NCBI GenBank assembly: GCA_006384855.1
Contig: VCJN01002150.1
Span: 118,265-182,264 of the forward strand
DNA from: Tetraselmis striata
Lineage: Eukaryota > Chlorophyta > Chlorodendrophyceae > Chlorodendrales > Chlorodendraceae
Reading direction: 5' to 3'
Length of the DNA: 64,000 nucleotides
This document shows, in pieces, positions 19,845 through 64,000 of the stretch; position 1 is the stretch's first letter, and each line of letters opens with the position of its first letter. The notes below the pieces were generated by a model, which was not told the DNA's origin, did not search any database, and saw nothing but the letters and a program-made list of their open reading frames with translations. The translations under genes and the position numbers were made by a program.

Positions 19845-22516
19845 AACGGTAACCTATTTTGCACCGCGGATTTCATTTTGCACCGTAGGGTTTGGTTATA
19901 CCCTAGTTCCCAGGGCTACTATCAGTTCTTAAGACTCATGGGTGGTGCATCTTGGGTTTGTAGACCTAGGGTGCATGCGGCATTTATTAGCGTGCACACC
20001 AACCGTGACTCATATCCAATGCTGGTTTTGGAGCATTTTGTACAAAATGGGACAAAGTGCAAGTGCAAGTCAATATCAATCATAATGATTGAATTCATCG
20101 CCTAGCCACAAAGACGTTGCTAAGAGGTTACTCGTTGAACATCCCCAACTCGAGCAAGTCCTTCCTCGTGGCTGCCTTAAACTAAGAGGTTACTAAGAGG
20201 TTGCTAACATGTTACTCGTTGAGCATTCCCAACTCAAGCAAGTCCTTCTTCGTGGCTGCGTTAAACTTGACGACTCCTCCGGGCTTGCATTGTGCTGGGG
20301 TGGTTGACATGACGTGGACGCAATTGTTTCGTGGCTGACTTATTTGCCACCCAGTTTGCGCGTATGTCTTCACGATTTGGACGCTTTTACCGTACCACTT
20401 CTTTTTGACCATGGTGCCGTCCTCGTTGAACAACTCGCGACTTCCCGACGCGTCGTGGATGGCCTTCGCGTACGACAGAGGGACGGCTTTAACAAGCTTC
20501 CAAGGAAGCGTCGGGCACTTCTCACAGCTTGTGTCAACCGGCTTCTTCCCTCCTTTTGTCTGCGCGTACAACCATAGGGGCATGAGAGGTCTGCCCTATT
20601 ATATGCATCGGCATGGAAGGGCTCGTATACGGCCACGGTCAACGTGTCTTCGGTAGTCTCGCGCGACTTCACAAGCCCGATGACGATTCTCAACTCCCAA
20701 TCGCCAAGAGTTTCTGGATACTTGTCCTCCTCATGCACCTAGCGATGGCCAAGACCGCAACCTATGTCGGTCCCGAGCGAGACGCCATACCATTTCTGTC
20801 CCAGCTAGGACAAGCAAGGCAGATGCACCAAATGCGTTTGTCCCGACAAAAAAATAGCAAACAATGGGACTCATATATCGGAGACGTCTATGATAACGAA
20901 GTTCGTGCCCTTCGCATCGTTGGGCGATGTGTTGTCATGAAGCCTCTCCTTGGCGCCGGCATGAGCTCTTTGGAAGGTGCTATCATCTTGAAGCACTTGA
21001 GCTCGAACCTCGGCTTCAACGCGAACGGCTTCGGCATTGTTGAGGTGAGGTCGGCGTTGGTAGCCACCGTGTGACGTGCCTCTGCGGGCGCGGCCTGCCC
21101 GTGCTCGCGCAAGAAGATGTCAACTTCCTCTTTCCGCTGCTGCCAAAACATGGAGAAAGCTGCCGAGGGACTAGTATGCATCTCATCCAAGTCGTCAAGC
21201 ATGTTCTTCAAGCTCTTGCGCTCGATTGGGGAGAAGTGCAACTGATCTGTCAGGTCCGTGATGTACGACCTAACCTTCTTGAAGTCATCCAAGTACCTCT
21301 CCACCTTCATCGCGTCGGGCTTCTTCTTGTCGTAGAGAGCGTAGAAAAGGGGCCGGCCCGCACGAATCTCGGGCGTCCTAGTTGGCGCGCTCTTCAAGAT
21401 TTGCACGGGCTCGGAAAGCGGTTTGTTGGACCACATGGCGGTGCGCAACGACCCGCCACACGCGGCGGCGTCATCACACGTGCTTTTGCGGCTTGCCGAT
21501 GTCATGGATGTGGTCTTGGAAATGGGGCCTTAATAATTCAGAGAAGTCGAGGGAGAATGAGAGCTCTGCAATCTCTAGAGTGGGCGAGAATGTTTTCGCA
21601 ACCAAGTCAAGAAAAGCCTCGACTGTGTAGGCGGAGCTGCGAGACAGCGCAAGATTGATGCGGCTGGAGATTTGGTCAATGAACTTGGCGTTCATTTGTG
21701 TTCCCGACAGGCATGAGCACCGAATGAATGACGTCGCAGATGCCGATAGACACAATCAAATTGCAGAGGGCCGCCACGTTTCTGTTCTTGTTCTCCCTGA
21801 CGGTTTTGTCCATCTTGATTTTGATGTACGGAATGTTTTTTGCCACGGAGTTGAATTTCCTGCACCGCAAATTAGATTTCATCAATCCACGGATACTGGA
21901 CAACTACGGCGAAACAGTCAGGAGGACAACGAGCTCGCCTTCATGATCGTGATCCATATCAGAGTGCAAGTCGTGGATGAATCATGGGGGATGGTGTTGG
22001 TGTAGTAGTAGATTTCGTCGTCCGGGCGGTAGCGGTCGTACTTCACACCAGTGAGGTGATACCTGAGGAGCATGTCGGGCTTCATAGTCTTGGGGATACG
22101 AACCCAGTGAGGCAGCATGGTCTTTGCGGAGTCCATCGCATGCTATCAGTTTCAAAGAAGAAGAAGTTTCCATGGCCAAGGCGCGATTGGAAGGCGGCGT
22201 TGATCAAACCCCTCGGTTCCATGCGCGTTCTCTCGAGGTGTACCTTCTGCTCGGCTCTGACCTGACGCCTCACAAGGTCTCAGAGCGCTTTGCCCGCCGC
22301 GCAAATGGGAGAATGGCTGAATCGCTTCACCTTTGGCGTGGTGACATCCGGGAATTTTTCCTTCCAAGTCCGGCGGAAAGTGTCGAACGACGCAAGCTTC
22401 ACTTCGCTCTCGGCAGCCAAATCCACAAAGCGGCAAGTAGTTTTTAAGGGTTTGTTAGTGACATGGTCCGTCGAAATCGTACAAGGCCTATCGATAGCGG
22501 AATAGAATCGTCGCAC
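19845..22516 (-). pseudogene. DUF7869-like transposase gene, copy A (left half of the transposon)
   Basis: Same order as the 25.2-27.8 kb copy: left terminus (AACGGTAACCTATTTTGC, 19845), C-terminal exon (20212-about 20735), an intron, the long helical exon (about 20888-21840) and the N-terminal-side exon (21918-about 22440). Recognisable motifs include ENKNRNVAALCNLIVSIGIC and the NTIPHDSSTTCT strand. Where the other copies read LPVGHTHE, this copy has MPVGNTNE, so the His-Thr-His-Glu motif is lost. The 3' end is locally duplicated (about 20103-20185 against 20186-20270). Several frame breaks. It is the most diverged of the three copies, hence the oldest. Confidence 0.8.
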
Positions 22517-24908: not shown

Positions 24909-25185
24909 CTGCACTTTCGAAAAGCTTGTAAATGTAATCGATCAAACATCGGCCCAGCAATTCCGCGCCGCTCCCCGGCGCCGCTGATGCCTTGCGCACC
25001 CACCGCCCAACTAAACCTAGCCCCCTTGGCAATCTGCTGAATCGACGGAGGTTCTTAAGCAGTACCTGCTGGCAGTCTTCTGGGTACGTGGGACTGCAAA
25101 GGGAGGTGACACCGTTGGGACAGTCATAGGGGTAAGACTTGCCGGACAGTTACACAATGCTAAAATTACAGCACTTTTGCGTGTT
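24909..25185. other. Intergenic stretch before the large transposon
   Basis: No gene, repeat or regulatory site is evident here. Confidence 0.5.
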
Positions 25186-25215
25186 AACAGTAATTTAACC
25201 TATTTTGCGCCGTGG
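25186..25215 (+). repeat. Left terminal inverted repeat
   Basis: About 30 bases beginning AACAGTAATTTAACC. The same terminus is present in the copy at 61767 and, with a small deletion, at 19845. Confidence 0.75.
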
Positions 25216-25997
25216 AATTCATTTTGCACCGTAGGGTTTGTTTATACCCTAGTTCCCGGGTTTACTATCAGTACTTAAGACTCACTGGTGATGTAGCTTG
25301 GGTTTGTAGAACTAGAGTGCATGGCGGCATTCAACAGCATGAAGGCCAGCCGCGACGCATATCCAATGTTGGTTTTGGAGCATTTTGTCCAAAATGGGAC
25401 AAGATGAGGCAATGAAATCAATATTTATTATGATTATTACTGATAGCTAGCTAGCCAAAAGACGTTGCTGATAGTTTATTCGTTGAGCATCCCCAACTCA
25501 AGCAAGTCCTTCTTCGTGGCTGCGTTAAACTTGGCGACTCCGCCGGGTTTGCGTTGCGCTGGGGTGGTTGACATGACGTGGACGCAGTTGTTTCGTGGCT
25601 GGCTGATTTGCCACCCAGTTTGCGCATATGTCTTCACGACTTGGACGCTTTTACCGTACCACTTCTTTCTGACCATGGTGCCGTCCTCGTTGAACACCTC
25701 TCGACTTCCCGACGCGTCGTGGATGGCCTTCGCGTACGATAGGGGGACGGCTTCAACAAGCTTCCAAGGAAGCGTCAGGCACTTCTCCCAGCTTGTGTCA
25801 ACTGGCTTCTTCCCTCCTTTTGTCTGCGCGTACAACCATAGGGGCATGAGGGGTTTGCCCTTTGCATCGGCATGGAAGGGCTCGTATACGGCCACGGTCA
25901 ACGTGTCTTCGGTAGTCTCGCGCGACTTCACAAGCCCGATGACGAATCTCGACTCCCAATCACCAAGAGTTTCAGGACACTTGTCTTCCTCATGCAC

Positions 25998-26145
25998 CTA
26001 ACGATGACCAATACCGCGAGCTATGTTAGTCCCGAGCGAGACGCCACGACATTTTTGTCCCAGCTGGGACAAAATAACAAGCAAGGTAGAAGAACAAAAT
26101 TGTTTTGTCCCGTAAAGGACAAAAATGACAAACAATGGGACTCAC
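25998..26145 (-). other. Last intron of the transposase gene with a GTCCCA palindrome
   Basis: Donor GAT|GTGAGTCCC, acceptor CGTTAG|GTGCAT, both in phase 0. It holds the perfect palindrome TTTTGTCCCAGCTGGGAC (continuing AAAA) and a second GTCC/GGAC pair. The same intron with the palindrome is kept in the 62-kb copy. Confidence 0.75.
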
Positions 26146-27747
26146 ATCGGAGACGTCGATGACAACGAGGTTCGAGCCCTTTGCATCGCTGGGCGATGTG
26201 TTGTCATGAAGCCTCTCCTTGGCGCCGGCGTGAACTCCCCGGAAGGCGCTGTCATCTTGAAGCACTTGAGCACGAACCTCGGCTTCCACGCGAGCGGCTT
26301 CGGCATTGTTGAGGTCTGCGTTGGTAGCCATCGTGTGACGTGCCTCAGCAGGCGCGGTCTGCCCGTGCTCGCGCAAGAAGTCGTCAACTTCCTCTTTCCG
26401 TTGCGGCTAGAACCCGGAGAAAGCTGCCGAAGGAGCAGTTTGCATCTCATCCAAGTCGTCGAGCAGATTCTTCCAGCTCTCGCGCTCGACTGGGGAGAAG
26501 TGCCACTGGACCGCCAGGTCCGTGATGTACGACCTGACCTTCTTGAAATCATCCAAGTACCTCTGGACCTTCACCGCGTCGGGCTTCTTTTTGTCGCAGA
26601 GAGCGTACAAAAGGGGCCGGCCCGCACGAATCTCGGGCGTCCCAGTTGGCGCGCTCTTCAAGATCTGCACGGGCTCAAAAAGCGGTGTGTTGGACCACAA
26701 GGCGGTGCGCAACGACCCGCCAGACGCGGCGGCGTCGTCACGGGTGAACTCGAATTTGTGCGGCTTACTGATGTCCTGAATGTGGTCTTGGAAATGGGGC
26801 CTTAACCACTCAGAGAAGTCGAGGGAGAATGAGAGCTCAGCAATCTCCGGAGTGGGCGAGAATGCCTTCGCCACCAAGTCAAGAAAGGCCTCGATTGTGT
26901 AGGCGGAGCTGCGAGATAGCGCAAGACTGATGCGGCTGAAGATCTGGTCAACCCGTTCGTGAGTGTGCCCGACAGGCAAGAAGACCAAATGAATGACGTC
27001 GCAGATGCCGATAGACACAAGCCAATTGCAGAGGGCCGCCACGTTCCTATTCTTGTTCTCCCTGACGGTGTTGTCCATCTGGATTCTGATGTACGGAATC
27101 TTTCTACCACGGTGTTGGATTTCCTGCATCGCAGACAAGCTTTCATCAGTCCATGGCTACCGGACAACCACGGCGAACCTATCGGGAGGCTAACGAGCTC
27201 ACCTTCATGATCGTGATCCATATCAGAGTGCACGTCGTGGACGAATCGTGGGGGATGGTGTTGGTGTAGTAGTAGATGTCGTCCGGGCGGTATCCGTCGT
27301 ACTTCACACAGGTGAGGTGGTACTTGAGGAGCATGTCGGGCTTCACAGTCTTGGGGATGCGAACCCAGTGAGGCAGCAGGGTCTTCGCGGAGTCCATGCT
27401 ATCAATTTCGAAGAAGAAGAAGTTTCCATGGCCAAGGCGCGACTGGAAGACGGCGTTGTTCAGATCCCTTCGTTCTTGGCGCACTCTCTCGAGGTGTACC
27501 TTCTGCTCAGCTCTGACCTGACGCCTCACCAGCTGCTGATGTTGACGGTGCACTTGACGTTCCTCTGGCGTCATGTCCTTTGTGCAAATCTCGCGAGCTT
27601 GGTCTCTGAGTGCTTTGCCCGCCGCGCATATGGGACAGTGGCTTAATCGCTTCACCTTCGGCGTGGTGACATCCGGGAAGTCTTCCTTCCAAGTCCGGCG
27701 GAAAGTGTCGAACGATGCGAGCCTCACTTCGCTCTCGGTAGCCAAAT

Positions 27748-28469
27748 CTACAAAGGGGCAGGGGCGTGATATGTCGGTATACAAATAAGGTCTCATAATG
27801 CGAGACAGAAAAGTTCGGTCTGAAGTGGGTCGAAATAATTATATCGGTAGTGGGTGAATAATTCTGTAATCAGCATGGCGAAACAATCTGTCATCAGTGT
27901 GACGAAACGGTATGTCAGTAGCGGGACAAAACCGTATCTCAGCAGTGGGACAAGACGTTCTCTCTGCAGTGGAACGATATCGGCTAATTATGTGGGACAA
28001 ACACTTTTGCGGTCGGTGGGACGAAACGGTATGCCATGAGCGGTGCGAAACGTTCTGTCATCAGTGGGACGAAATCGGTCCGGCGTCGGTGGGACTAAAC
28101 GTTCTGGCGATAGCGGGACGAAACGTTCTGTCATCAGTGGGACAAAACGGTTTGTCATCAGCGGGACAAAACGGTTTGTCATCAGTGGGACGAAACGGTT
28201 CGTCAACAGCGGGACGAAACGGTCTGTCAGCAGCGGGACAAAACGGTTTGTCATCAGTGGGACGAAACGGTTTGTCATCAGTGGGACGAAACGGTTTGTC
28301 ATCAGCGGGACGAAACGGTTTGTCATCAGTGGGACGAAACGGTTTGTCATCAGTGGGACGAAACGGTTTGTCATCAGTGGGACGAAACGGTTTGTCATCA
28401 GCGGGACGAAACGGTCTGTCATCAGCGGGACGAAACGGTCTGTCATCAGTGGGACAAAATGGGCCTCAC
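27748..28469 (-). other. Intron of the transposase gene filled by the minisatellite
   Basis: Donor CGTG|GTGAGG and acceptor TTTGTAG|ATTTGG, joining in phase 1 to keep the frame into DLATESEVRLASF. Nearly the whole intron is the 24-bp array. Confidence 0.7.
27790..28460 (+). repeat. 24-bp minisatellite array 2
   Basis: Units of 24 bases with core TCATCAGTGGGACGAAAC. Units are well kept from about 28100 to 28455 and degenerate toward 27790. The sense of the repeat relative to the window is the same in all four arrays. Confidence 0.95.
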
Positions 28470-28744
28470 CACGGAGAATGGCGTTGTCGTCCTCGGCCCA
28501 CGACTTGTAGTAGTAGTGGACGCAAATCTTGGTCATCCAGGGAGGTAGATAGGTGCTTCTTGAAGGTCTCGCTGTTTCCGTCATGAAAAGGCATGATCTC
28601 GACGTGACCGAGGTCATCCGAGAAGAAGTGCTCGAGAAACATGCGCACATGCTCCCTCGGTCCGGTTTGTCTGCTCTCGTATTGCTTGCGCTGCCTGATG
28701 TACGTGGGTTCGTTATCCACCACCGACCGCTGGATCACGAGACG

Positions 28745-29753
28745 TGTTATGTACTCTACACTGCTGTACTTTGTACTGCGGGAGCCGACGAAGGAGCGAA
28801 GAACTGGCGACTGAGGCGGACGAGAACGAGTACAAGCCAAGCGAAGTACGAGTATGAGCATTGCGAGTGCGAGTACAAGTGAAGGCGAAGTACTGGTACG
28901 AGGACGACGAGGCGTCAGTACGAGCGACTACCAGGCGACTAGTAGTGCAGGACAGTATTACGAGTACCCACATGGGGTGCGAGTAACCTGTACTTACGCC
29001 TGCGTACCAGCAGGAGCGCGATTGTCGTACGCTATGGTGTCACCTGCTAGAGGATGATGATACCAAGCGTGATGGAGCGCTGCCTTAGTGGAGTGTCTCA
29101 GTAGTAGGTACTAGAGCCTACTAGAACAATCTAGAACGCTATAGCATTTGCTATAGCAATAGTAGTGAAATATTATATCACTGTGCTGCGGACAGACGAA
29201 GGTGCTAGGAACCGTGTCTGTACTTAGTAGTATATGACTAAAATAGCGACGGGCCGCGGGTTAGGACCGCACACGTCGATTTTAGTATTAGTCTAGTAGT
29301 TACACGCAGCACAGTGATATAATATTTCACTACTATTGCTATAGCAAATGCTATAGCGTTCTAGATTGTTCTAGTAGGCTCTAGTACCTACTACTGAGAC
29401 ACTCCACTAAGGCAGCGCTCCATCACGCTTGGTATCATCATCCTCTAGCAGGTGACACCATAGCGTACGACAATCGCGCTCCTGCTGGTACGCAGGCGTA
29501 AGTACAGGTTACTCGCACCCCATGTGGGTACTCGTAATACTGTCCTGCACTACTAGTCGCCTGGTAGTCGCTCGTACTGACGCCTCGTCGTCCTCGTACC
29601 AGTACTTCGCCTTCACTTGTACTCGCACTCGCAATGCTCATACTCGTACTTCGCTTGGCTTGTACTCGTTCTCGTCCGCCTCAGTCGCCAGTTCTTCTTC
29701 GCTCCTTCGTCGGCTCCCGCAGTACAAAGTACAGCAGTGTAGAGTACATAACA
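28745..29753. repeat. Kilobase palindrome
   Basis: Arms 28746-29189 and 29306-29752 are near-perfect reverse complements (about 445 bases each) around a 116-base spacer. The spacer belongs to the left unit, since the same spacer follows the unit at 31820. Confidence 0.95.
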
Positions 29754-32380
29754 CTCTCACCCTGTTAATGAACAGCGGCCGCGCTGTTCGCCAGTACGTT
29801 CAGCAGAACTCGGTCGTCGTTGTAGAGTCGCGTAGCCAGAATATGTACAGATATGTACAGTGGTGACACTCGTCATAGAGGCAGTCCCTTCGGAAAAAAA
29901 AAATCCTCATAGTCGAGCATCATCTGGTGGTGCAGCAAGTCGCAGCAAAACGCCACCAATGGCACCGATAGGTGTCGTTCGGTGGGTAGCCACAGAAATG
30001 CAGCATTCTTCGAGCTCAGCCTCGTCGCGTCGAACTGTCGCAAGTCCCCATTGACTCGTAGCGTGTGCGCCATCGCTCCCGCCATCGGAACGCACACTCG
30101 CGTAGTCGTGGTCTAAGATTATATACCATAGGCTCTTGCGTCGCAGTTCGCCGAGGTAGCAGGCTCGCATCTTCTCAGCGGTGTCGGCATCGGCACGCAG
30201 CGCTTCGGTGTCGCTCATCGCTTAGTAGTAGGTCGTCGCTGCTCGCGATGTCGTCGGTGCGTCACATGTCGCGTCCGATACAGCACTCGTGCTCACAGTC
30301 GCTCACTCGCTGAACCGTAGTCGCATGTCGTCCACGGATTTTTCTACTCTCGATTTCGGTCAAAGCTCGTAGCTGGGCTGGTAGAGGGAATCATCGGCCA
30401 GTACCTTATACAGTATTTCCGCAAGTAGATAACCGTCCCATACCGGATACCTCCTCGCCATTTGTAGTCGTAGCCATCTTCTCGTCGCAGCAGTACAATA
30501 TATCCGTCCCATACCGGTGATACTGTTTTTGGTTCTAATGCAGTGAGTCGTAGACATACTCGTGCAAATATCCTGTTTTTCCTGTATTTTGCACTCTTGG
30601 CCTCCACAGTAGTAGATTCGTAGTCGCTGCTTCGGTATCTCCTACTGTGGTACGACGCGCTTCGTTCGGTACCGTACAGCATACAGCATGTACAGGCAGG
30701 TAACGCGCCGAGTCTCGGTCGCCTCTCCGCAGCTCCCATCGCGCCATCTTCGCGTTGGCCGTCGTCGAGTCTTCTTACTTGGCAGCAGGCAGCAGGGTCT
30801 CCTCCGCCATACCGCATCATGTCGAGAGAAATGCGCGCGCCCGGACATTGAGCCGTGGTCACCCAGGATTTTCACCTGACGGCTCAGGTCATAATCTCGC
30901 AGCGCTCTCCTCGAATCTCAGTCTGCAGCTGTTTTGCACTCTCGTACGAAATTAATCGTACCAGTACCTCATGGTTGTACCGGTAACCACAGCTGTTCTG
31001 TCTTCTTCTTCTTCTGAGTTCGATTTTCGTGTGGCATGTTCATTCTTCATCGCAGAAAAAAAAAATCTGCGGTTCTTCTCGTTCGCTATACCAGCTCGTT
31101 ACCAGTAGTCGCTACTATGCCGATAACGGCTGATACAGGTCGGTTCTGGTTGATGTCGCGCCATCGCCAACTCGCGTCGTCGGAACTGTAGCTGGGGTCG
31201 CGAGTCGCACGTTGCTCCGCCCTCATGGCTTCGCAGCTTGCAGCGTCATCGTTACACATCTCAGATCGAACGTTCGGCTGCTCCTTGGTACTCGCAATCT
31301 TCGTCCCTTCGCTAGTTCATAATTTCGCTCGCTCGTTGTCGCATCCTCCTCATCGTCGCTACATCGTTCTCGCCACGTCGAACTTGGCTCCATCTATCAA
31401 AGCCGGTGCGCATCCTCGGTGGGCGTCCCCGCCATAGGATCCTTGACATCTGAAGTCTTCTTCTGTCCCTATCTCGCCTCTCGCTCTCGTCGCTATGCCG
31501 CTTCTCTTGTGGAATCCGGAACCATGTGCTCCGGTCACCGCTCCGAAACCAAGTGTTACAGCCCCCTTAGGACTTAGGCCGAATAGACGTCTAGCCATAG
31601 ATAGTCCTAAAGCAGGAGCTGAGTCGAGGGCCCATTGGATCGTTATTCCACACGGCCAGGAATAATGAGCAGAGATTTGGGAAAAGGGATTCTTACAATA
31701 CCGGAATGCCGGTAACCTGGGTGACTGGCCCGGCGGTGGTTTTGCCGGCCTATTTATAGTCGCTGGTTTCCGTCATTCCGTGCGCTGTGTACCGATCCAA
31801 TTTCCGCCACCTGTGCTGCGTGTAACTACTAGACTAATACTAAAATCGACGTGTGCGGTCCTAACCCGCGGCCCGTCGCTATTTTAGTCATATACTACTA
31901 AGTACAGACACGGTTCCTAGCACCTTCGTCTGTCCGCAGCACAGTGATATAATATTTCACTACTATTGCTAAAGCAAATGCTATAGCGTTCTAGATTGTT
32001 CTAGTAGGCTCTAGTACCTACTACTGAGACACTCCACTAAGGCAGCGCTCCATCACGCTTGGTATCATCATCCTCTAGCAGGTGACACCATAGCGTACGA
32101 CAATCGCGCTCCTGCTGGTACGCAGGCGTAAGTACAGGTTACTCGCACCCCATGTGGGTACTCGTAATACTGTCCTGCACTACTAGTCGCCTGGTAGTCG
32201 CTCGTACTGACGCCCCGTCGTCCTCGTACCAGTACTTCGCCTTCACTTGTACTCGCACTCGCAATGCTCATACTCGTACTTCGCTTGGCTTGTACTCGTT
32301 CTCGTCCGCCTCAGTCGCCAGTTCTTCGCTCCTTCGTCGGCTCCCGCAGTACAAAGTACAGCAGTGTAGAGTACATAACA
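28745..32380 (-). mobile_element. Young LTR-like, non-coding element nested in the transposase gene
   Basis: Flanked by the 5-base direct repeat AGACG (28740-28744 and 32381-32385). Both outer ends read TGTTATG...CATAACA. A ~560-base terminal unit occurs at 31820-32380, again in the same sense (shortened) at 29306-29753, and once inverted at 28745-29305. The two same-sense copies flank ~2.07 kb without recognisable gag or pol. On the minus strand a purine-rich AGGGTGAGAG immediately precedes the inner repeat, as a polypurine tract would. The copies differ at only a few positions, so the insertion is recent. Best read as a non-autonomous LTR element (TRIM/LARD type) with one rearranged end. 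A Ginger-like DNA transposon with long inverted repeats and TGTTA ends is the main alternative. Confidence 0.65.
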
Positions 32381-32940
32381 AGACGTCTGTGTTTCGAGAC
32401 CTGATGCAAGACCTCCCACGCACGCCCACACGTGTAGATGGGGCCGCGATGATCGAAAGATCGCAAGTAGCCACCGTGATCGAACATGTAATCGAACTTG
32501 TCGGATGCCGACTCGTAGCCACCCCTGAGAACCTGAGCGAGCCGGTCAAAGGAGCGGTTCTGATTGCCAGAGTATACGGTCAACGCACGGTCCAACACGG
32601 CATCAACGAGAGCCTCTCCGCACTGTGTGTAGAGCTTGTGCACGCACTTGCGCGAACAGCATGGCGACTGCTCGCTAGCCTCCTTGGCGAGCATGAGGCG
32701 GATACAATCGCGAGAGGTGCGCTTGCTGATCAGAGACGAGACCTTGCCATTACCGCTTTCGGCGACCTCATCGCAGCCCTTGCCCCACGTGTACTTCCTT
32801 TTCTCAGGCTCCTTACGATCACTCGCACGCGCGTCGCAATCACACGAGTACCCACTGCGGCACGAACACAGCGGTAATGTAACTGTAGTGTCCGACGCGC
32901 CGGATCCTGGAGAAGAGGCCATGCTTTCGACCGCCGCCAT

Positions 32941-33483
32941 GCAGCGCGGGGCCAGTGGGTGGGGGGGGGGGGGGGGGGAAGGACTGTGATCTGTGGTGAG
33001 GAAGAGTGACGGCCGATGACCGTTCTCGGACGGGCCGTTGACCGGGGTGCATAATATCCAGGTACGGGTCAAAATAATTGATGACTCAAATACCGTGTTA
33101 TTTCGTGCTTCTTTCGTATGTCGGAAATAGTTCTATACTAGTAAGTACACCCAAATCCAATCCAAGGAATATATCATCCCATGAAGGAATATTATTGCCA
33201 CGCCACTGTACTCTCGTACCGTTATGACTCTCGAGTAGGGAATATTTTATCTTCCAGTAATAGTAATATATAGTCGCAGTAGTTAGCCCTGTATATTCGT
33301 CGCGGTGCAAAATACATGAACCTGATGACGACGACGAGGTACACTATAGTGTGCGCACGCGCGCCGTTGGTCCAGCAGGGGTCAGAGCGGCGGCAGACGG
33401 AAACCACGTCATTTCCACCTCTCCCTCACCGCTTCCCACCAAGAAACACGCTCATCTACCGCGTCAACCTACCTACCGCCACA
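32941..33483. promoter_or_regulatory. Divergent promoter region of the two transposon genes
   Basis: About 540 bases separate the putative starts of the leftward and rightward genes, so both promoters should lie here. It contains a poly-G tract at 32960-32978 (poly-C in the 5' leader of the leftward gene) and AT-rich DNA at 33080-33320. No TATA box or initiator can be called with confidence. Confidence 0.5.
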
Positions 33484-36400
33484 ATGGCGCCGAAGAAGAA
33501 CGAGCCTGCCAAGGACAAGGAAGACAAGGACGACGCCACCCCAGGTGAGTTGCGCGCTCGTACAGTAGCTGCCTGCCTGCTCGACGCGTGATACGGCCAG
33601 ATCTAGCGAGTTCGGTTAGGGTTCACTGTAGAAGCGGTGTAATCTAGGACCACTCGGGGTGTAGGCAGACGAGTGGCAGCGTACAGTAGCCGCCTGCCTG
33701 CTCGACGCGTGATGCGGCCAGATCTAGCGAGTTCGGTTAGGGTTCCCTGTAGAAGCGGTGTAATCTAGGACCGCTCGAGGTGTAGGCAGACGAGTGGGAA
33801 TATAAACACAAACGAGACGAGCGGCATCAGGGTCCTGCATGGTAGTATTACGTCCCGTCGAGGCAGCTGTTGCAAGCAGTAAGGATGCTAATTGGTGGTG
33901 GGAGGGGGTGGGGGTGAAGAGCGGCCAGGGGGAACCTCTGCCGGTACTCCGCCGTAAGGAGTGGTTTAATATTAGTGTGAAGCGCAGTACTTACAGACAT
34001 TACATTATTAAACCGCAGTACATAATGTATTGAAATTAGTTTTGTCATCAGTGGGACAAAACGGTTTGTCATCAGTGGGACGAAACGGTTTGTCATCAGT
34101 GGGACGAAACGGTTTGTCATCAGTGGGACGAAACGGTTTGTCATCAGTGGGACGAAACGAAACGGTTTGTCATCAGTGGGACGAAACGGTTTGTCATCAG
34201 TGGGACGAAACGGTTTGTCATCAGTGGGACGAAACGGTTTGTCATCAGTGGGACGAAACGGTTTGTCATCAGTGGGACGAAACGGTCTGTCATCAGTGGG
34301 ACGAAACGGTTTGTCATCAGTGGGACGAAACGGTCTGTCATCAGTGGGACGAAACGGTTTGTCATCAGTGGGACGAAACGGTTTGTCATCAGTGGGACGA
34401 AACGGTTTGTCATCAGTGGGACGAAACGGTTTGTCATCAGCGGGACGAAACGGTTTGTCATCAGCGGGACGAAACGTTCTGTCATCAGTGGGACGAAACG
34501 GTTTGTCATCAGTGGGACGAAACGGTTCGTCATCAGTGGGACGAAACGGTCTGACAGGATATGATATTTTTAGGTCGAAGGTCCAAGCGGACATCAAAAC
34601 CTACCGAGAAAGCAAAAGAATTCGATGCGCTCGGAGCGCTAGTCGGGAGAAAACACAAGGCGTCATCTTCTGTGCCCGAGCAGCCGGCGGCGAAGAAGAG
34701 CCGTGCAGCCTCAGCTTCTGCAGCTGGAGCCGGCGCTGAGGCATCAGGTAACCCCTGGAAACCGAGCCTTTTAGGAGGTAGGGTGCCGGCTTACGGCACG
34801 CACTCGCAAGGAGAAAGATCGGCCGCCTTGCTTTTGAGGGCCCGAATCAAGAGCGGACAAGTCCTCTCAGATGCTCAAATGCAGACAGCGCGAAGGCTAA
34901 TCGATTACGAAAAACTCATGCAAGCTTACTATCAATCAGGTCCTTGCCTCTCTCCAATCATATAATTTTTGTGAGTGCACTGTGTCATATTGACATTGGT
35001 TGAAATCATGTGTGTTGACAGGTTCGAAAGGACGCGCACAAGAGCCAGTAGCGACTAAATCTTCAAAGGAATCCAAGGGAAAAGAAAAAGTTTCAGAAAC
35101 GATTGTGACTCCAGGTAATTGTGACTGAAAGTATCAATCCCTGCCTTTGTGAGTGCACTGTGTCATATTGACATTGTTTGAAATCATGTGTGTTGACAGA
35201 TTCGAAAGGACGCGCACATGAGCCAGTAGCGACTCAAGCTTCAAAGGAATCCAAGGGAAAAGAAAAGGTTTCAGAGACGATTGTGACGCCAGGCAATTGT
35301 GACTTAAAGTATCAATCCCTGCCTTCTCACTCCCTTCGATTACTTTCTCGTCAATGAGTTATCTGACGTTCCAACAGGTCGTACATTGGCGCAGGCAACC
35401 GCGTCGGAAGCAGCTGGTAGATCGGGATCCCCAGGTAAGAAAAATTACGCTTGGCTTTGATGGTGTATGGCGATACAGTTCAGTAGTTAATCGTGACGCC
35501 CACTGCAGGTGTGTTGAGTACTCTCTACTCATTCTTTACAGGTTCCCCAAATCAAGGCTCTTCTTTGTCTAAAGGCCCATCTCAAGTACCGGAAACAGAG
35601 CCTGAGCCTGAAATAGAGCACACTGAGCCGGAGCCGGAGCCCGAGCCGGAGCCTGAAACAGAGCCCACTCAGATGGAGCCGGAGCCCGAGCCGGAGCCCG
35701 AGCCCACTCGGCTTGACCCGGCGCCAGAGGCCGAGCTCGAGACTCCAGCGCCGACTACCGGGCAAGCGTCTGGTTCTGGAGCCTCTTGTTCTCGAGCCCC
35801 TGTTGCCGAGGCTCCGAGAAGGGTTCCTGAATTCCTCAGTATGTGCACGGATGAAGAGGTCTTCGGCACAGAGGAAGAACAGAGGCAACGGGCGGCAGAG
35901 AAGCGTAAGCAAGCTCTCGACATCACCGGCACTCCTGGACCCGAGAGGAAGACAAAGCTGATGACGGTCGCCTCTTACGACGACTTCTTTGACGAGAGGG
36001 ACGGGTCCCAAGAAGATGACTCCTACAGCGACTTTACCTCAAGGAGTTGGACTATCCACTGGTTCAAGAACGCAAGTGCTGAGGTAGAGATCTATTTGTA
36101 CATCGAATTGCACAAGGCGAGCCTGCTGACTGGCAAGGACTTTTTCGATGATCCGAAGGGGCCACTTCTCGCGTGTATCGGAAAGATCAAGGACGTCGAG
36201 CTGGACTCGGCCGGAAACTACGAGGTGAGTAAAGCTTACTCGATGTCTGAATTCGTGTCAATGTCGTGTTTTAATAAGTATTAATATTCTTATGCTTGTT
36301 ACCGCAGATCTCCCTTGAACCTTATCGCTTGACAGTGCACAAGGAGTTCAGGATCGATGTCAGCTTTGAGAGGTTGCTACTCCACGCGATCCAACCGCCA

Positions 36401-39400
36401 CTCTCCTTCCAGCCGCGGTTCCAGTCTTACTACGCATGGACTTTGGTCGAGCGCAATGTGCTGGCGCAGGCGCTGACAGGTTTCGCGTCTGGTCAGATTG
36501 ACATCAATGACTTGGCCAACATTGACAAGGATTTTAAGAACGCGCTTCCATACGTCAACACGTTGGCCGTCCCGCCGGCCTTGAATGGCTTCAACAACAC
36601 CGGTGCCGTCGACTGGATCTCTTACGGCCACCTCAGAGTCGAGATTACTGATCCAGAGGTGAAGACATCTCACGGTGGCGACATCAACACGCTATACGCC
36701 GACAGAGTCAACCTCGTCGTTGACAAGGATACGGGGCTGCCTCACATTTTCAGCTTCATATCCGATAAGTTCGTCGCTCCGCCGCCGGAATTTGAATTCC
36801 GTTCCCCAAAGCTGCAAGACTGCAATATGGTGGCGCAAAGCTACAAGGTAAAAGCCTATCGCGACCTGTTGTCCCTATCCGGTAATCAATACACAATGCA
36901 ACTTACTGACATCCATTTCTTGCATTTGTTATTCAGAGGAATCCTTCCCTGTCCGCCGAGAATTTCTCGGTGTCCTTTCCAGTAGTCCCTAAATTCGGTT
37001 CTTTCCGCCAAGAGTACGAGCCCCTCGCTCAGACCATGGCCAACTTCAAGGAGCTAGTCGCAGCACACGAAGGCGGGGAGAACCCGAGGTTGGCGGATTC
37101 AAGTTCCTACAAGCCAGAGATCGACGTCATCATCGATTTTCTTACGTACTGCAATGCGCGTCAAGCCAACATCGATGGCAGCCACAGACGGGAGGCGAAG
37201 CGCATGGTGAAAGAAAACTACCCGGAAATCTACAAAGCCAACAAAGGCATCCACCTCACGTCGGCTAAGATGTACATCGGCCTCTCGCCGGAAGTCTGCC
37301 GCTACATGTCTATGAAGCTCAACGAGGCGGGTCACACCGTCGTGGGAGACACGTCGATGCACAAACTCCTGGTGAGTGCCCCATTCTCCCAAATTATTAT
37401 TAAGCTGACCGTGGCAGCAAATAGGCGTAAAGTGTGACAAAAGTCGTTCTTCGTTCGCGGGTTAAACATATGTCACAGTGGGACGAAACGGTCTGTCATC
37501 AGCGGGACGAAACGGTTTGTCATCAGTGGGACGAAACGTTCTGTCATCAATGGGACAAAACGGTTTGTCATCAGTGGGACGAAACGGTTTGTCATCAGTA
37601 GGACGAAACGGTCTGTCATCAGTGGGACGAAACGGTTTGTCATCAGTGGGACGAAACGGTTTGTCATCAGTGGGACGAAACGGTCTGTCATCAGTGGGAC
37701 GAAACGGTTTGTCATCAGCGGGACGAAACGGTTTGTCATCAGCGGGACGAAACGGTCTGTCATCAGTGGGACAAAACGGTCTGTCATCAGTGGGACGAAA
37801 CGGTTTGTCATCAGTGGGACGAAACGGTTTGTCATCAGCGGGACGAAACGGTCTGTCATCAGCGGGACGAAACGGTATGTCATCAGTGGGACGAAACGGT
37901 TTGTCATCAGTGGGACGAAACGAAACGGTTTGTCATCAGCGGGACGAAACGGTCCGTCATCAACGGGACGAAACGGTTTGTCATCGAGGTACAATCGTTC
38001 GGAATTTTGAAATCGGTGCAATTGTTTCTGCATAACCTTCGCAGATGTTTCGAGAGTTGGTATGCAGAACAGGATGCAAATCGCCCCGGCTTTAGGGCAC
38101 TCCCGCAAATCAGGGTAGTGAAGGAGTTCAAGAAGTCTGAAGTTCTTCAAGTTGAACTTGAGAAGATCGGCATCAAAGATGAGAAGAGCAACGAGTTCTC
38201 AAATTTGATTGACCTCTGTTCGCGCCCACAACGGTGAGCTGCGTACATGATGAAAATTAATTGTGTTGTTAATGCTGCTAGATTCTGACAAATGATTTGC
38301 GCAGTGTTTTTGAGCCCCTTGAGCAGATTTCTGAAGCCTACCGGCATGTGGACCTCGGTGTTCGAGGATGGAGCGAAGCCAGAACCAAACTCGGAGACCT
38401 GTTAGTGTACTACGAGCAAGAACTCGATAGAGTCAAGCGCCTCAATGCCGGCAGGCAACTCACCCAGAAGGAAGTGAGCAAGGTTTACGAAGCAATTCGG
38501 AAGCCTATCAATGCAATCCTCGATAATAAGAAGTACGGCTTCGGGAAAGACAGAGCTCACTTCCGAGTCGCACTCATGGAGGTAAGTTGTGACCGACCCC
38601 AGTGTCTTAATCACATGGAATACTAACATGTCTTTCTCCGTACTGAAGTTTGTTTTTCGACCCAGGATGTTGGCTTTGGACCCCATGCGCCCTGGCTAGA
38701 CGAGCCGTCTCTTGCCAAGCAGAGCGACAGCGCGGATCTCCCTGTGGGCCAGATGTACCTGGTGGTTGGACTGCTCATCCAAGGCGAGCACAGTGTGACC
38801 CCGAGCCTCTACGAGCTTGTGGATGACATTAAGCATGCCGGCGACGATGGCCCCATGGCTGTCACGCACACCAACGCGAAGTGGCTCGCGATGATTGAGA
38901 CCTGGAGGTTTCGCGATCTCTTGCGTCGAGCAAGCATCAAGCTCATGAATGCTATTGGCACGGCAAAGGGACACGGACAGGAACTCCAACTGCTGACGCC
39001 CGACGAACCGGCCAGGAACTGGGGGAAACATCTCTCGGACCACATCATCGAAATGGATGTGGATGACAAAGTGTCGGGTGAGCAAGCGGCCGCTCGCCTT
39101 GACGCTATCACCAAGTTCCAAGCCAAGGTTGATGACCTCGGCCCAACAGGCTTCCCCAGAAAGTTCCAGGATTTGTTCAAAGGTGCTCATCGCTCCGGTC
39201 CTTTGATGGTCTTGCTGACCCCTCCTGCCAGATGGGGGGACATGAAATCCGCCGATTGTCTCACACCACTACCGGTTCGAGAGCATATCGCGGCCACCAA
39301 CACCACCATCAGGAGTGAGGCGTATCGCATCAAGAATCAGATGCCGGACTTGGTCATCTCCTTCTTCACAGAGTTTGCTCTTCTGGCATGTGCGCCGGAG

Positions 39401-40822
39401 CTTATCGCGGTTTCCGCTCCGAATGTTTCTAATGAGCTGTGGATATCGATGAAGGTAACTAAGATCTTGTGCAACCACAAATGCTCTTCTGAATTTTCGT
39501 TGTGAGCTATTAACCCGAATCTGTTTTCTAATACACACAGGCCGAGAAACTTCCGGTGATGCCCAAGGGCCATGAGGTCGACAAGGATGAGGAGGTGTGG
39601 TTGAACACGGAGCTTTGCAAGACTTGCATTGTGGAGGGGAACTTCAAGGCTCCCGCGACAAAACAATTCGTCGCGGACGCCATGTCGGCAGTTCGTGCCA
39701 AAAAGGCAACAGTCTTCATTGCCGACGCGCTTTTCGGAGCTGGTTCGCACACATGGGACTCGAAGGATGATGCGTGGGGCACGGACGACTTCAACGACGT
39801 GTTTGCTTTCGCCAGGCAAGACAACCCCCACAACCCCGGTGCGTACTAGATGACTGTGCTTTCATTTATCTCATTCCCGATTTACCCCCGCGCAGGCAGT
39901 TGAATATCCTGACTGGATCTTCTGACGTCCACACTGCTCTCGATGGGTGCCATTTCTTCATTCACCTCTCGGACCAGCAACTTGGATCCGCAATCACAGC
40001 CGTTCAAAAACAAGCTGAGGACCTCATCTATCACGTCCTGACTTGGGCCAAGGATTGCGGGATGAAGATGGGCAGCTCTCTGCGTCACGACGCTGAGTAC
40101 TACCTCTACGTCAGGAAGCCCCCGCCAAGCATCATACCTGACAACATCCGTTTCGATGATCCCCGAAGGTGAGATTTGATCCGTGGAAAATAGCCGGCTT
40201 GTATATTCTACTCGCTAAGCCGGTTGTGCCTTTCCAGGTTCTCTACATCCATCATGTTGGGTCACTTCAAAGACAGTTCGAAATTGAAGGACGAGAACAG
40301 ACAGACGGTGAACAAGTACCAAAAGCCTATCGCTCTCTTCGCCAAGCACCTTAAGATGGCGGCAACAGATGGGACAACAATCGTCGACGTCACAGCCGGA
40401 ACCGGGACAACCGCGGTGCGTGAGGGGTGCAACCCGGGTGAGTGTCTTAATGGGATCAACATAAAGAAAATAACGCCTTGTGCGGTTTGCCACGCCTTTT
40501 CCAGGTCGCTGCGGCCTTTTCCGTGTGGTGGGACCATATGGATCATACCTACTCGTTCACACACAGGAACTTGAAGATTATCCTCATTGACAACCAGAAG
40601 ACGCAAATCGCTGGGATGAAGTCCAGGATGACCTCATGGTTCAAAGAGAAACCATGGGACGAGACTCAAAGACTGCGTCCAAGTGACTTCGAGAAGTGGC
40701 CGGGTCTACCCCATCCAATGACCGAGTTAGAGGAGCAGTTAGAGCGTGTAGCGGCGGATAAGAGGAGGCAAGAGGCGGCAGATCGCCGAGGGGATTATGT
40801 GATCGAAGATGATGATATGTAG
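33484..40822 (+). CDS. Transposon-borne large protein with C-terminal N6-adenine-methyltransferase-like domain
   Basis: Exons: 33484-33544, 34574-34939, 35022-35114, 35200-35292, 35378-35434, 35542-36224, 36308-36847, 36937-37371, 37989-38233, 38305-38581, 38666-39454, 39541-39838, 39896-40168, 40238-40437 and about 40567-40822; about 1,550 residues. The N-terminus is Lys-rich (MAPKKNEPAKDKEDKDD), followed by an acidic Glu-Pro repeat tract (35.6-35.7 kb). The long middle is unrecognised. The C-terminal ~350 residues follow the order of N6/N4 DNA methyltransferases: VFIADALFGAGSHTWD where DPPY is expected, a W-K segment, IVDVTAGTGTTAV as the SAM loop, then LIDNQKTQ. Most joins keep frame; those at 39838/39896 and 40437/40567 are one base off under GT-AG rules. 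The methyltransferase call is from motif order only. Confidence 0.7.
33561..33797 (+). repeat. Tandem duplication in intron 1, 121-bp period
   Basis: Two near-identical units, 33561-33681 and 33682-33797, each starting TACAGTAGC and containing GATCTAGCGAGTTCGGTTAG. Confidence 0.95.
34043..34552 (+). repeat. 24-bp minisatellite array 3 (in intron 1)
   Basis: About 21 units of the TCATCAGTGGGACGAAAC family, nearly identical to one another. The array ends about 22 bases before the acceptor of exon 2. The intron spans 33545-34573. Confidence 0.97.
34968..35320 (+). repeat. Duplicated exon-plus-intron unit, ~178-bp period
   Basis: Exon 35022-35114 and exon 35200-35292 encode nearly the same 31 residues (SKGRAQEPVATKSSKESKGK and SKGRAHEPVATQASKESKGK). 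Their upstream introns are also alike (TTTGTGAGTGCACTGTGTCA). The second copy uses a GC donor (CCAG|GCAATT) in place of GT. All exons here are phase 1, so the duplication kept the frame. Confidence 0.9.
37470..37985 (+). repeat. 24-bp minisatellite array 4 (in intron 8)
   Basis: About 21 units of the same family. The intron runs from GTGAGTGCC (37372) to an acceptor formed by the truncated last unit (CATCGAG|GTACAATCG, 37988/37989). That acceptor keeps the reading frame, while the more usual-looking CTTCGCAG at 38044 does not. Confidence 0.9.
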
Positions 40823-41134
40823 TACAATTCCGCAAAATTAGCCGCTCATATGTTTTGTCCCGGCTTTGACAGAGTTTCAGCCCCGGACGGACAAACTACT
40901 TGTAGCCATCACGGCCCCCGCACTTTTTTGTCCCAGTTTGGACAGAGTTTCAGCCCCCGATGGCGCAAACTTCTTGTAACCATCCCGTTTCCTTCAATCT
41001 TTTGATTTGTCCCTGCTTGGACGGAATTGGTTTCCCCGACTTGGCACAAAATGAACCAACCGGCATTCATATTAGCTTGCAATCCCACTACTGCCCCAAA
41101 CCCTAATTTAGACCTAACCACAATGCACCGCGTG
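40823..41134 (+). repeat. Right subterminal repeats of the transposon
   Basis: Three imperfect copies of a TTTTGTCCC-N(3-7)-GGACAGAGTTTCAGCC unit lie at about 40852, 40926 and 41007. Reduced versions occur in copy 1 (near 2598 and 2674). The array unit (GTGGGACGAAAC), the intron palindrome and the left end (TTTTGTCCAAAATGGGAC) share the GTCC/GGAC core. Confidence 0.65.
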
Positions 41135-41164
41135 CCTCGGGGCAAAATAGGTTGCATTACTGTT
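41135..41164 (-). repeat. Right terminal inverted repeat
   Basis: Reads ...GCAAAATAGGTTGCATTACTGTT, the imperfect reverse complement of the left end at 25186; the last two dozen bases are best kept. Confidence 0.75.
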
Positions 41165-41349
41165 TGTTGCTACTCGCTACGTACTTTACTGGCTACGTGC
41201 AAGTATGCCTCATCTCTACCTTTAAGCACTTTGGATGATGGCCCAACTATGCCTCATCTATCCGCAGTCTGCTCTCCCAAGGGGCGGTGAAGCATCTCAT
41301 GAGATGGTTTCACTGCAAAATTTTGTAAGTCGACCAGTATAGAACAAGA

Positions 41350-61766: not shown

Positions 61767-64000
61767 AACAGTAATTTAACCTATTTTGCACCGTGGAATT
61801 CATTTTGCACCGTAGGGTTTGTTTATACCCTAGTTCCCGGGTTTACTATCAGTACTTAAGACTCACTGGTGATGTAGCTTGGGTTTGTAGACCTTGGGTG
61901 CAGTGCAGCATTCAATAGCATGAAGGCCAGCCGCGACGCATATCCAATGTTGGTTTTGGAGCATTTTGTCCAAAATGGGACAAGATGAGGCAATGAAATC
62001 AATATTTATTATGATTGTTACATCCAGCGGCTAGCTAGCCACAAGACGTTGCTGATAGTTTATTCGTTGAGCATCCCCAACTCAAGCAAGTCCTTCTTCG
62101 TGGCTGCATTAAACTTGACGACTCCGCCGGGTTTGCGTTGCGCTGGGGTGGTTGACATGACGTGGACGCAGTTGTTTCGTGGCTGGCTGATTTGCCACCC
62201 AGTTTGCGCATATGTCTTCACGACTTGGACGCTTTTACCGTACCACTTGTTTCTGACCATGGTGCCGTCCTCGTTGAACACCTCTCGACTTCCCGACGCG
62301 TCGTGGATGGCCTTCGCGTACGATAGGGGGACGGCTTCAACAAGCTTCCAAGGAAGCGTCAGGCACTTCTCCCAGCTTGTGTCAACTGGCTTCTTCCCTC
62401 CTTTTGTCTGCGCGTACAACCATAGGGGCATAAGGGGTTTGCCCTTTGCATCGGCATGGAAGGGCTCGTATACGGCCACGGTCAACGTGTCTTCGGTAGT
62501 CTCGCGCGACTTCACAAGCCCGATGACGAATCTCGACTCCCAATCACCAAGAGTTTCAGGACACTTGTCTTCCTCATGCACCTAACGATGACCAAGACCG
62601 CGAGCTATGTTAGTCCCGAGCGACACGCCACGCCATTTTTGTCCCAGCTGGGACAAAATAACAAGCAAGGTAGAAGAACAAAATTGTTTTGTCCCGTAAA
62701 GGACAAAAATGACAAACAATGGGACTCACATCGGAGACGTCGATGACAACGAGGTTCGAGCCCTTTGCATCGCTGGGCGATGTGTTGTCATGAAGCCTCT
62801 CCTTGGCGCCGGCGTGAACTCCCCGGAAGGCGCTGTCATCTTGAAGCACTTGAGCACGAACCTCGGCTTCCACGCGAGCGGCTTCGGCATTGTTGAGGTC
62901 TGCGTTGGTAGCCATCGTGTGACGTCCCTCAACAGGCGCGGTCTGCCCGTGCTCGCGCAAGAAGTCGTCAACTTCCTCTTTCCGTTGCGGCCAGAACCCG
63001 GAGAAAGCTGCCGAAGGAGCAGTTTGCATCTCATCCAAGTCGTCGAGCAGATTCTTCCAGCTCTCGCGCTCGACTGGGGAGAAGTGCCACTGGACCGCCA
63101 GGTCCGTGATGTACGACCTGACCTTCTTGAAATCATCCAAGTACCTCTGGACCTTCACCGCGTCGGGCTTCTTTTTGTCGCAGAGAGCGTACAAAAGGGG
63201 CCTGCCCGCACGAATATCGGGCGTCCCAGTTGGCGCGCTCTTCAAGATCTGCACGGGCTCCGAAAGCGGTGTGTTGGACCACAAGGCGGTGCGCAACGAG
63301 CCGCCAGACACGGCGGCGTCGTCACGGGTGAAACTCGAATTTGTGCGGCTTACTGATGTCTTGAATGTGGTCTTGGAAATGGGGCCTTAACCACTCAGAG
63401 AAGTCGAGGGAGAATGAGAGCTCAGCAATCTCCGGAGTGGGCGAGAATGCCTTCGCCACCAAGTCAAGAAAGGCCTCGATTGTGTAGGCGGAGCTGCGAG
63501 ATAGCGCAAGACTGATGCGGCTGAAGATCTGGTCAACCCGTTCGTGAGTGTGCCCGACAGGCAAGAAGACCAAATGAATGACGTCGCAGATGCCGATAGA
63601 CACAAGCCAATTGCAGAGGGCCGCCACGTTCCTATATATTCTTGTTCTCCCTGACGGTGTTGTCCATCTGGATTCTGATGTACGGAATCTTTCTACCACG
63701 GTGTTGAATTTCCTGCATCGCAGACAAGCTTTCATCAGTCCATGGCTACCGGACAACCACGGCGAACCTATCGGGAGGCTAACGAGCTCACCTTCATGAT
63801 CGTGATCCATATCAGAGTGCACGTCGTGGACGAATCGTGGGGGATGGTGTTGGTGTAGTAGTAGATGTCGTCCGGGCGGTATCCGTCGTACTTCACACAG
63901 GTGAGGTGGTACTTGAGGAGCATGTCGGGCTTCACAGTCTTGGGGATGCGAACCCAGTGAGGCAGCAGGGTCTTCGCGGAGTCCATGCTATCAATTTTCG
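61767..64000 (-). pseudogene. DUF7869-like transposase gene, copy C (runs off the window)
   Basis: Starts at the left terminus AACAGTAATTTAACC and follows copy B closely throughout. C-terminal exon 62581-62060, palindrome intron, central exon from 62730 to about 63707, and the FFEIDSMDSAKTLLPHW-side exon reaching the window edge. LPVGHTHERVDQIFSRI and ENK-type segments are present. Unlike copy B it keeps Trp after AAFSGF, so the central exon continues into PQRKEEVDDFLREHGQ. It has its own small insertions in the central exon near 63336 and 63637. The high similarity to copy B points to recent activity. The right half is beyond the window. Confidence 0.8.

Follow-up and report, generated by a model that had tools for sequence, protein, structure and literature searches.

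A two-gene DNA transposon of Tetraselmis striata pairing a probable DUF7869 transposase with a methyltransferase-derived protein

The window considered here is a 64,000-nucleotide stretch of DNA from the green alga Tetraselmis striata (contig VCJN01002150.1, positions 118,265 to 182,264), and positions 25186..41164 of its forward strand are almost certainly a single inserted copy of a DNA transposon with two genes, referred to below as the family-1 element. This copy measures 15,979 bp, a later 3.6-kb insert included, and its boundaries are common to eight further copies fetched from the genome. Its termini, AACAGTAAT at 25186 and ATTACTGTT at 41164, are mutually inverted, with 26 of the 30 outermost bases alike between the left terminal inverted repeat (25186..25215, plus strand, AACAGTAATTTAACCTATTTTGCGCCGTGG) and the right one (41135..41164, AACAGTAATGCAACCTATTTTGCCCCGAGG when read on the minus strand). 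Read inward, the left end runs AACAGTAAT-TT-AACCTATTTTGC from 25186 and the right end AACAGTAAT-GC-AACCTATTTTGC from 41164 on the opposite strand, and the whole is flanked by a target-site duplication, TGTT, at 25182..25185 and 41165..41168. A first-pass annotation of this DNA had proposed inverted termini at both ends and two divergent spliced genes between them, and both proposals stand, the former through the termini and flanking duplications just described and the latter through gene models across copies. Its further claim, that three partial copies in the window place each gene beside the expected terminus, holds only in part: the partial copy at 61767-64000 has the left terminus, and the left end of an older, ~88% identical relative at about 19850-22276 is degraded at its tip, but another older relative at 1-723 (~81% identical) comprises the gene-2 end only and stops short of any right terminus.

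Gene 1 occupies 25476..32940 on the minus strand and, in a model taken from other copies, comprises four exons encoding 956 residues; both genes were modeled from splice signals and open frames, and the gene-1 model is matched by the database model P0016 from its residue 7 onward. In the window, exon 1 is split by the insert (32940 to ~32381 and ~28744 to 28470) and is followed by exon 2 (27747-27203), exon 3 (27123-26146, with an in-frame stop near 26407), and exon 4 (25997-25476). The insert itself, at 28745..32380, is a different element with inverted ends of ~570 bp, and its presence in gene 1 makes the window copy longer than the others. The two ends of this insert are nearly identical and read GTTATGTACTC, and its flanks suggest a duplication of ~6 bp, AGACGT.

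Profile searches against Pfam bear out the DUF7869-like identity first suggested for gene 1, with a match to DUF7869 (PF25273) at E 4e-38 and scores of 131 bits for exon 3 and 149 bits for P0016, far over the cut-off of 26. The modeled core of the protein (residues 379-522) follows the strand and helix order of the RNase H fold, resembles mariner transposases and retroviral integrases, and has invariant aspartates. In P0016, the acidic residues D385/D388, D468, and D510 lie at the end of strand 1, at the end of strand 4, and in the helix after strand 5, respectively, and the matches listed by a second fold comparison are all DDE/D recombinases, the absence of a superfamily from that list carrying no weight. 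Foldseek with the gene-1 model returned no match at or below 0.001, and a sequence search of the PDB with gene 1 and gene 2 gave nothing meaningful. DUF7869 proteins of other organisms (e.g., P0068 of Apostichopus japonicus) share the domain and the invariant residues at 24-32% identity to gene 1. From the modeled fold we infer that gene 1 probably encodes the RNase H-like DDD transposase of the element.

Gene 2 lies at 33484..40822 on the plus strand and is spliced from 15 exons into an open frame of 1560 residues in the window copy, the open copies ranging from 1560 to 1578. Its introns follow the GT-AG rule except for a GC start after 39815 (before exon 13) in all nine copies with both ends and another after 35292 (after exon 4) in the window copy only. 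Database models fit many of these junctions, most of them without the exon 13 start, which is contained in the divergent database protein P0109. Exons 12-15 (39541..40822) encode an amino-methyltransferase domain (PF01555) and a C-terminal tail. The DNA-methyltransferase domain anticipated in the first-pass annotation was recovered over the Pfam cut-off of 26.7 bits when spliced from copy C154 (31.6 bits, E 2e-7), database models without the exon 13 start scoring 24.8 and 26.2, and the end of gene 2 also matches a phage DNA methyltransferase family (E 6.5e-9). For the ~1,200 residues before the domain, the Pfam scans of pieces and long models gave no match over cut-off, exon 6 yielding a repeat-type match only, far under it. 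Relatives of gene 2 outside Tetraselmis numbered 0 of 14 and 0 of 40 hits (to E 10), all being Tetstr1 entries, in searches that depend on five-residue words in common and on comparable length.

Both genes recur together across the genome. In the 224-Mb assembly searched, the terminal tip pattern matches 421 times (224 forward, 197 reverse) and its reversed control not at all. Ten further copies were fetched, eight with both ends, 11.2-12.6 kb apart, and two with one end inside the fetched stretch; together with the window copy, the former make up a set of nine. Exact 4-bp duplications flank six of these nine and six of ten more end pairs (12/19 together), against 1 of 342 mis-paired left and right flanks. 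All four gene-1 exons map in 9/9 copies and all 15 gene-2 exons in 8/9, copy C1460 lacking exons 9-10 and half of exon 11, so that every copy read with both ends carries both genes, one with a partial gene-2 deletion. Both frames are open from end to end in three of the nine (C1441, C154, and C2669), two gene-2 acceptors of the model not being AG in C1441, while the window copy has an open gene 2 and a gene 1 disrupted by the insert and the in-frame stop. Two short end pairs, C70 and C200, lie 7.3-7.4 kb apart and are internal deletion copies of the same element: C70 keeps gene 1 and the duplication CGAC with most of gene 2 gone, and C200 has lost most of both genes and has no duplication, bringing the exact duplications to 13/21. 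The copies support, as first proposed, an autonomous-type DNA transposon carrying both genes, with 4-bp target-site duplications set by its aligned ends and with no one-gene copy among the nine of full size.

Linkage of the two domains points the same way. Sorted by profile range, the 104 PF01555 places listed for the genome fall into three sets: 59 gene-2-like places (range 42-48 to 197), a second type with 37, and eight others. When compared with DUF7869 places drawn from 150 scored of 548 candidates, 35 of the 59 gene-2-like places share their contig with a divergent partner 6.5-21.4 kb off (24 of these at 9.3-10.6 kb); pairs in another arrangement are absent within 5-25 kb, with one at 25.2 kb. 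Because only 150 of the 548 candidates were scored, the 24 partnerless places are weak evidence either way. Side-by-side database locus numbers also exist for the two genes (TSEL_018301/018302, 010644/010645, 021276/021275, 035424/035425, 006719/006720, and 043409/043410). The gene proteins match EukProt entries labeled Tetstr1, presumably Tetraselmis striata, with identities reaching 100% across the aligned part.

Such regularity bears on whether two adjoining elements, or an integrated virus, have been misread as one transposon. A small DNA virus, TsV-N1, infects Tetraselmis striata according to the accessible part of the literature on it, and this would lend the viral version some color. 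The copies contradict either version, having their termini in common, duplications at their flanks, and a constant divergent layout; no viral family exceeded cut-off in the Pfam scans, and a scan with the DUF7869 alignment found no relatives in viral contigs. We regard this explanation as scarcely credible.

The pairing of DUF7869 with a methyltransferase is not a one-off, since the same layout is seen in a second family. Six of the 37 second-type PF01555 places were read as DNA (L051-L053 and L076-L078), the rest being sorted by profile range only. A right end that reads inward AACA(T/G)TGATTCAAAATAAATG is common to L051-L053 and occurs at 89 places with up to one mismatch, and the left end, AACATTCGTTCATT, occurs at 87 with up to three mismatches, both with controls of 0; the termini are AACATT. 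The DUF7869 group of this family, typed from 73 scored of 1038 candidates, has 27 places that are 47-54% identical in sequence to P0067, a DUF7869 protein itself 31% identical to gene 1 and through which the link to gene 1 runs. The two genes are divergent in all eight contigs listing both (C1697, C1479, C2707, C401, C1134, C611, C2208, and C1400), at 10.0-24.7 kb. Exact 4-bp duplications occur at 7/12 end pairs, compared with 2/132 in the mis-paired control. Copy C2620, which sits inside sequence like gene-1 exon 4 as judged from 20 bases per side, provides an empty site: removing exactly 4 bp restores the sequence with three mismatches in 36, other lengths leaving 12-18. Ends starting AACA, 4-bp duplications, divergent genes, and a methyltransferase beside the right end are thus common to both families, whose methyltransferase domains are ~30% identical.

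Several other observations were made on these families. Nine short family-2 end pairs, 6.2-6.9 kb apart, occur beside pairs 13.9-16.6 kb apart (among L051-L053 and L079-L104) and are perhaps non-autonomous copies, and one copy (L087, L088 on C541) has an 11-base flanking repeat, GGCACTCCACC, instead of the usual four bases. The Mutator-like (MULE) look of an open reading frame in L053 was not confirmed. The eight PF01555 places in neither family lie on C1010, C2009, C1597 (twice), C803, C240, C2449:3071, and C501; those on C1010 (L074, DPPY) and C2009 (L075, DVPY) are bacterial-looking genes, perhaps contamination of the algal assembly, and served as yardsticks only.

Placement among known superfamilies was considered from the ends and duplications. 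Membership in Kolobok or piggyBac was rejected, TTAA being absent among the 12 exact family-1 duplications, which are all different. Zisupton (KDZ) was likewise set aside, as the available portion of PMC12730594 gives its duplications as 8 bp, while those of both Tetraselmis families are 4 bp and the sole empty site fits only 4 bp. The 4-bp duplications and three core aspartates are reminiscent of Sola, likened here by description rather than by sequence, the transposase of which Bao and others (2009) are said to have described as DDD. Sola2 duplications are 4 bp and AT-rich in the accessible part of PMC3627910, whereas those of the Tetraselmis elements are not AT-rich. The duplications and the DDD core fit Sola, and the assignment is left at Sola-like, with a question mark.

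Whether gene 2 matters to the element can be approached through selection. The pooled ratio of nonsynonymous to synonymous substitution rates (dN/dS) is 0.43 for gene 2 (ten pairs from five open copies) and 0.15 for gene 1 (three pairs), and gap totals in gene 2 come in threes. Within gene 2, six synonymous and nine replacement variants were counted in the methyltransferase core (ratio 0.41). The region immediately ahead of the core and the C-terminal tail, each with two synonymous and 11 replacement variants, look unconstrained; a coarser cut over the last 365 residues gives 0.97. Gene 2 must benefit the element in some way visible to selection. Gene 1 differs less than gene 2 among copies C154, C1441, and C2669 (synonymous divergence 0.010-0.026 versus 0.011-0.058), and its lower divergence may reflect gene conversion or swapping of halves among copies.

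Gene 2 could still be a passenger, a captured gene riding along without effect, and two observations weigh in that direction and against a kept partner. The deletion copy C70 has lost most of gene 2 and is flanked by a 4-bp duplication of its own. In addition, the P0067 locus (L105, C652:22000-31000) represents a third DUF7869 group. Different open frames lie upstream of it, and no methyltransferase was detected in the 8.3 kb before the first P0067 exon (best E 0.93; one copy, the family-2 distance being larger), a hint that the pairing is not universal. Deletion copies can, however, be moved in trans, and a passenger would square poorly with a dN/dS of 0.43 over the whole gene, frame-preserving gaps, and the recurrence of this pairing and layout in a second family whose methyltransferase domain is so far diverged. 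We judge the passenger account improbable and consider it very likely that gene 2 is needed for, or at least helpful to, the element.

What gene 2 might do depends on its motifs. The order IV-X-I of beta-class methyltransferases is present, with a candidate motif IV position at 39718..39738, motif X (KYQKPIAL) at 40314..40337, and the S-adenosylmethionine (AdoMet)-binding loop of motif I (DVTAGTGTTA) at 40386..40415, all on the plus strand. In place of the catalytic (D/N/S)PP(Y/F/W), family 1 reads IADALFG and family 2 has DSNY; alignments with family 2 (30% identity, E 2e-18) and with a bacterial-type DVPY protein of the same assembly define the position. Of 51 gene-2-like database proteins, the search expression recovered 30, all of them with DALF; the remaining 21 are without the motif IV stretch or did not fit the expression. 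An exon-11 motif, TPPARWG, was weighed as a candidate for motif IV and rejected, for it is too far from motif I, variable (LLTPPARWGD in six cases, LLTPFATWGD in two, and LLDPPARWGD and LLAPPARWGD in one each), and spliced out in some database models; its stretch, which may be exonic, is protein-identical in five open copies with one synonymous variant. Structure prediction for the methyltransferase domain failed, with a confidence score (pLDDT, predicted local distance difference test) of 33, from 16 closely related sequences and a query, P0082, without ~33 exon-13 residues. Gene 2 thus appears to derive from a beta-class DNA amino-methyltransferase. The N6-adenine methylation ascribed to it by the first-pass annotation is not supported as put forward: PF01555 is passed and the closest NCBIfam methyltransferase model is CcrM, at 20 bits against a model cut-off of 830, but the DPPY of motif IV has become DALF in family 1 and DSNY in family 2.

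Two accounts of this remodeled domain are available. Gene 2 could conceivably be a working amino-methyltransferase, making N6-methyladenine or N4-methylcytosine with an unusual motif IV and marking the element so that it evades silencing by the host, as has been proposed for the TET/JBP enzymes of fungal transposons. The profile and phage-family matches, the intact motifs X and I, the constraint on the core, and the aspartate and aromatic residue of motif IV retained in both families favor such an enzyme, against which stand the loss of both prolines in both families and an absence of methylation data for this alga in the literature listings; we hold it as a serious but tentative possibility, and catalytic activity as such at somewhat under even chances. 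Alternatively, it could be a dead methyltransferase that serves the transposition complex as a subunit for DNA binding or base flipping, or that acts as a regulator. The lost prolines beside a kept AdoMet loop, and the long unmatched region before the domain, are what such a protein might look like, yet motif I is needless in a dead protein and the aspartate and aromatic residue persist, so this account is plausible without being one we would bet on.

Repeats near the ends and in the introns may be relevant to either account. In C154, TTTGTCC/GGACAAA occurs five times in the left kilobase and three times in the right, against single-base-shuffle means of 0.11 and 0.14. Three 24-bp tandem arrays, in the first intron of gene 1 (27865..28459) and in introns 1 and 8 of gene 2 (34041..34550 and 37471..37985), consist of the same kind of unit, TTTGTCATCAGTGGGACGAAACGG, which is like the TTTGTCC repeats near the termini. 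Both the repeats and the arrays are candidate binding or target sites.

Taken together, the most probable explanation, which we hold with good confidence, is a transposase with an evolutionarily kept, methyltransferase-derived partner. The gene-1 transposase would cut at the AACAGTAAT termini and join them to the target with a 4-bp stagger; staggered joining with this offset is well supported because exact 4-bp duplications flank the copies, and the chemistry and the part played by gene 1 are put forward from its predicted fold. Gene 2 would be the partner, on the grounds that it matches the profile, has motifs X and I, is under selection for its reading frame, and recurs in the pairing of the second family. 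Its AdoMet loop and domain layout suggest DNA binding with base flipping, and as a best guess it would bind, and perhaps still methylate, the element's own DNA, for example at the subterminal TTTGTCC/GGACAAA repeats, which may help the transposase recognize or protect the element or may keep the element expressed. It is tempting, if distinctly speculative, to go further and suggest a eukaryotic transposon lineage whose machinery has two parts, a DUF7869 DDD transposase and, required by it, a methyltransferase-derived partner with a remodeled motif IV (D-x-x-F/Y), the pair being kept during divergence to ~30% identity in the partner's domain and self-marking or base flipping forming part of movement or silencing avoidance.

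Other transposons also carry accessory proteins. According to the accessible part of PMC12730594, several lineages of fungal DNA transposons (KDZ, Plavaka, and others) carry a TET/JBP dioxygenase and so resemble the Tetraselmis element in having a DNA-modification-type enzyme beside a transposase; the fungal enzyme oxidizes 5-methylcytosine, however, while the partner here has a beta-class amino-methyltransferase fold and stands with a DUF7869 transposase. Giant-virus mariner elements, as far as the available text of PMC3627910 goes, likewise combine a transposase and a methyltransferase, but with C5 or Methyltransf_26 domains and an endonuclease and in viral genomes, no endonuclease appearing in the pieces of the Tetraselmis element scanned. 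Kolobok lineages carry varied accessory proteins (PMC9587614, in part), and the accessible portions of the IS481EU account (PMC10045372) and the Repbase list (PMC4455052) hold no pair like this one. No publication on DUF7869 or this gene pair was found in a search that covered subscription papers and Repbase thinly, an entry under another name being possible.

For DUF7869, an uncharacterized domain, the element points to a likely job as a transposase, and in two families of a nuclear genome it links a DNA-methyltransferase fold to transposition. Because some young copies keep both frames open in a cultured alga, the role of transposon-borne DNA-modifying enzymes becomes directly testable.

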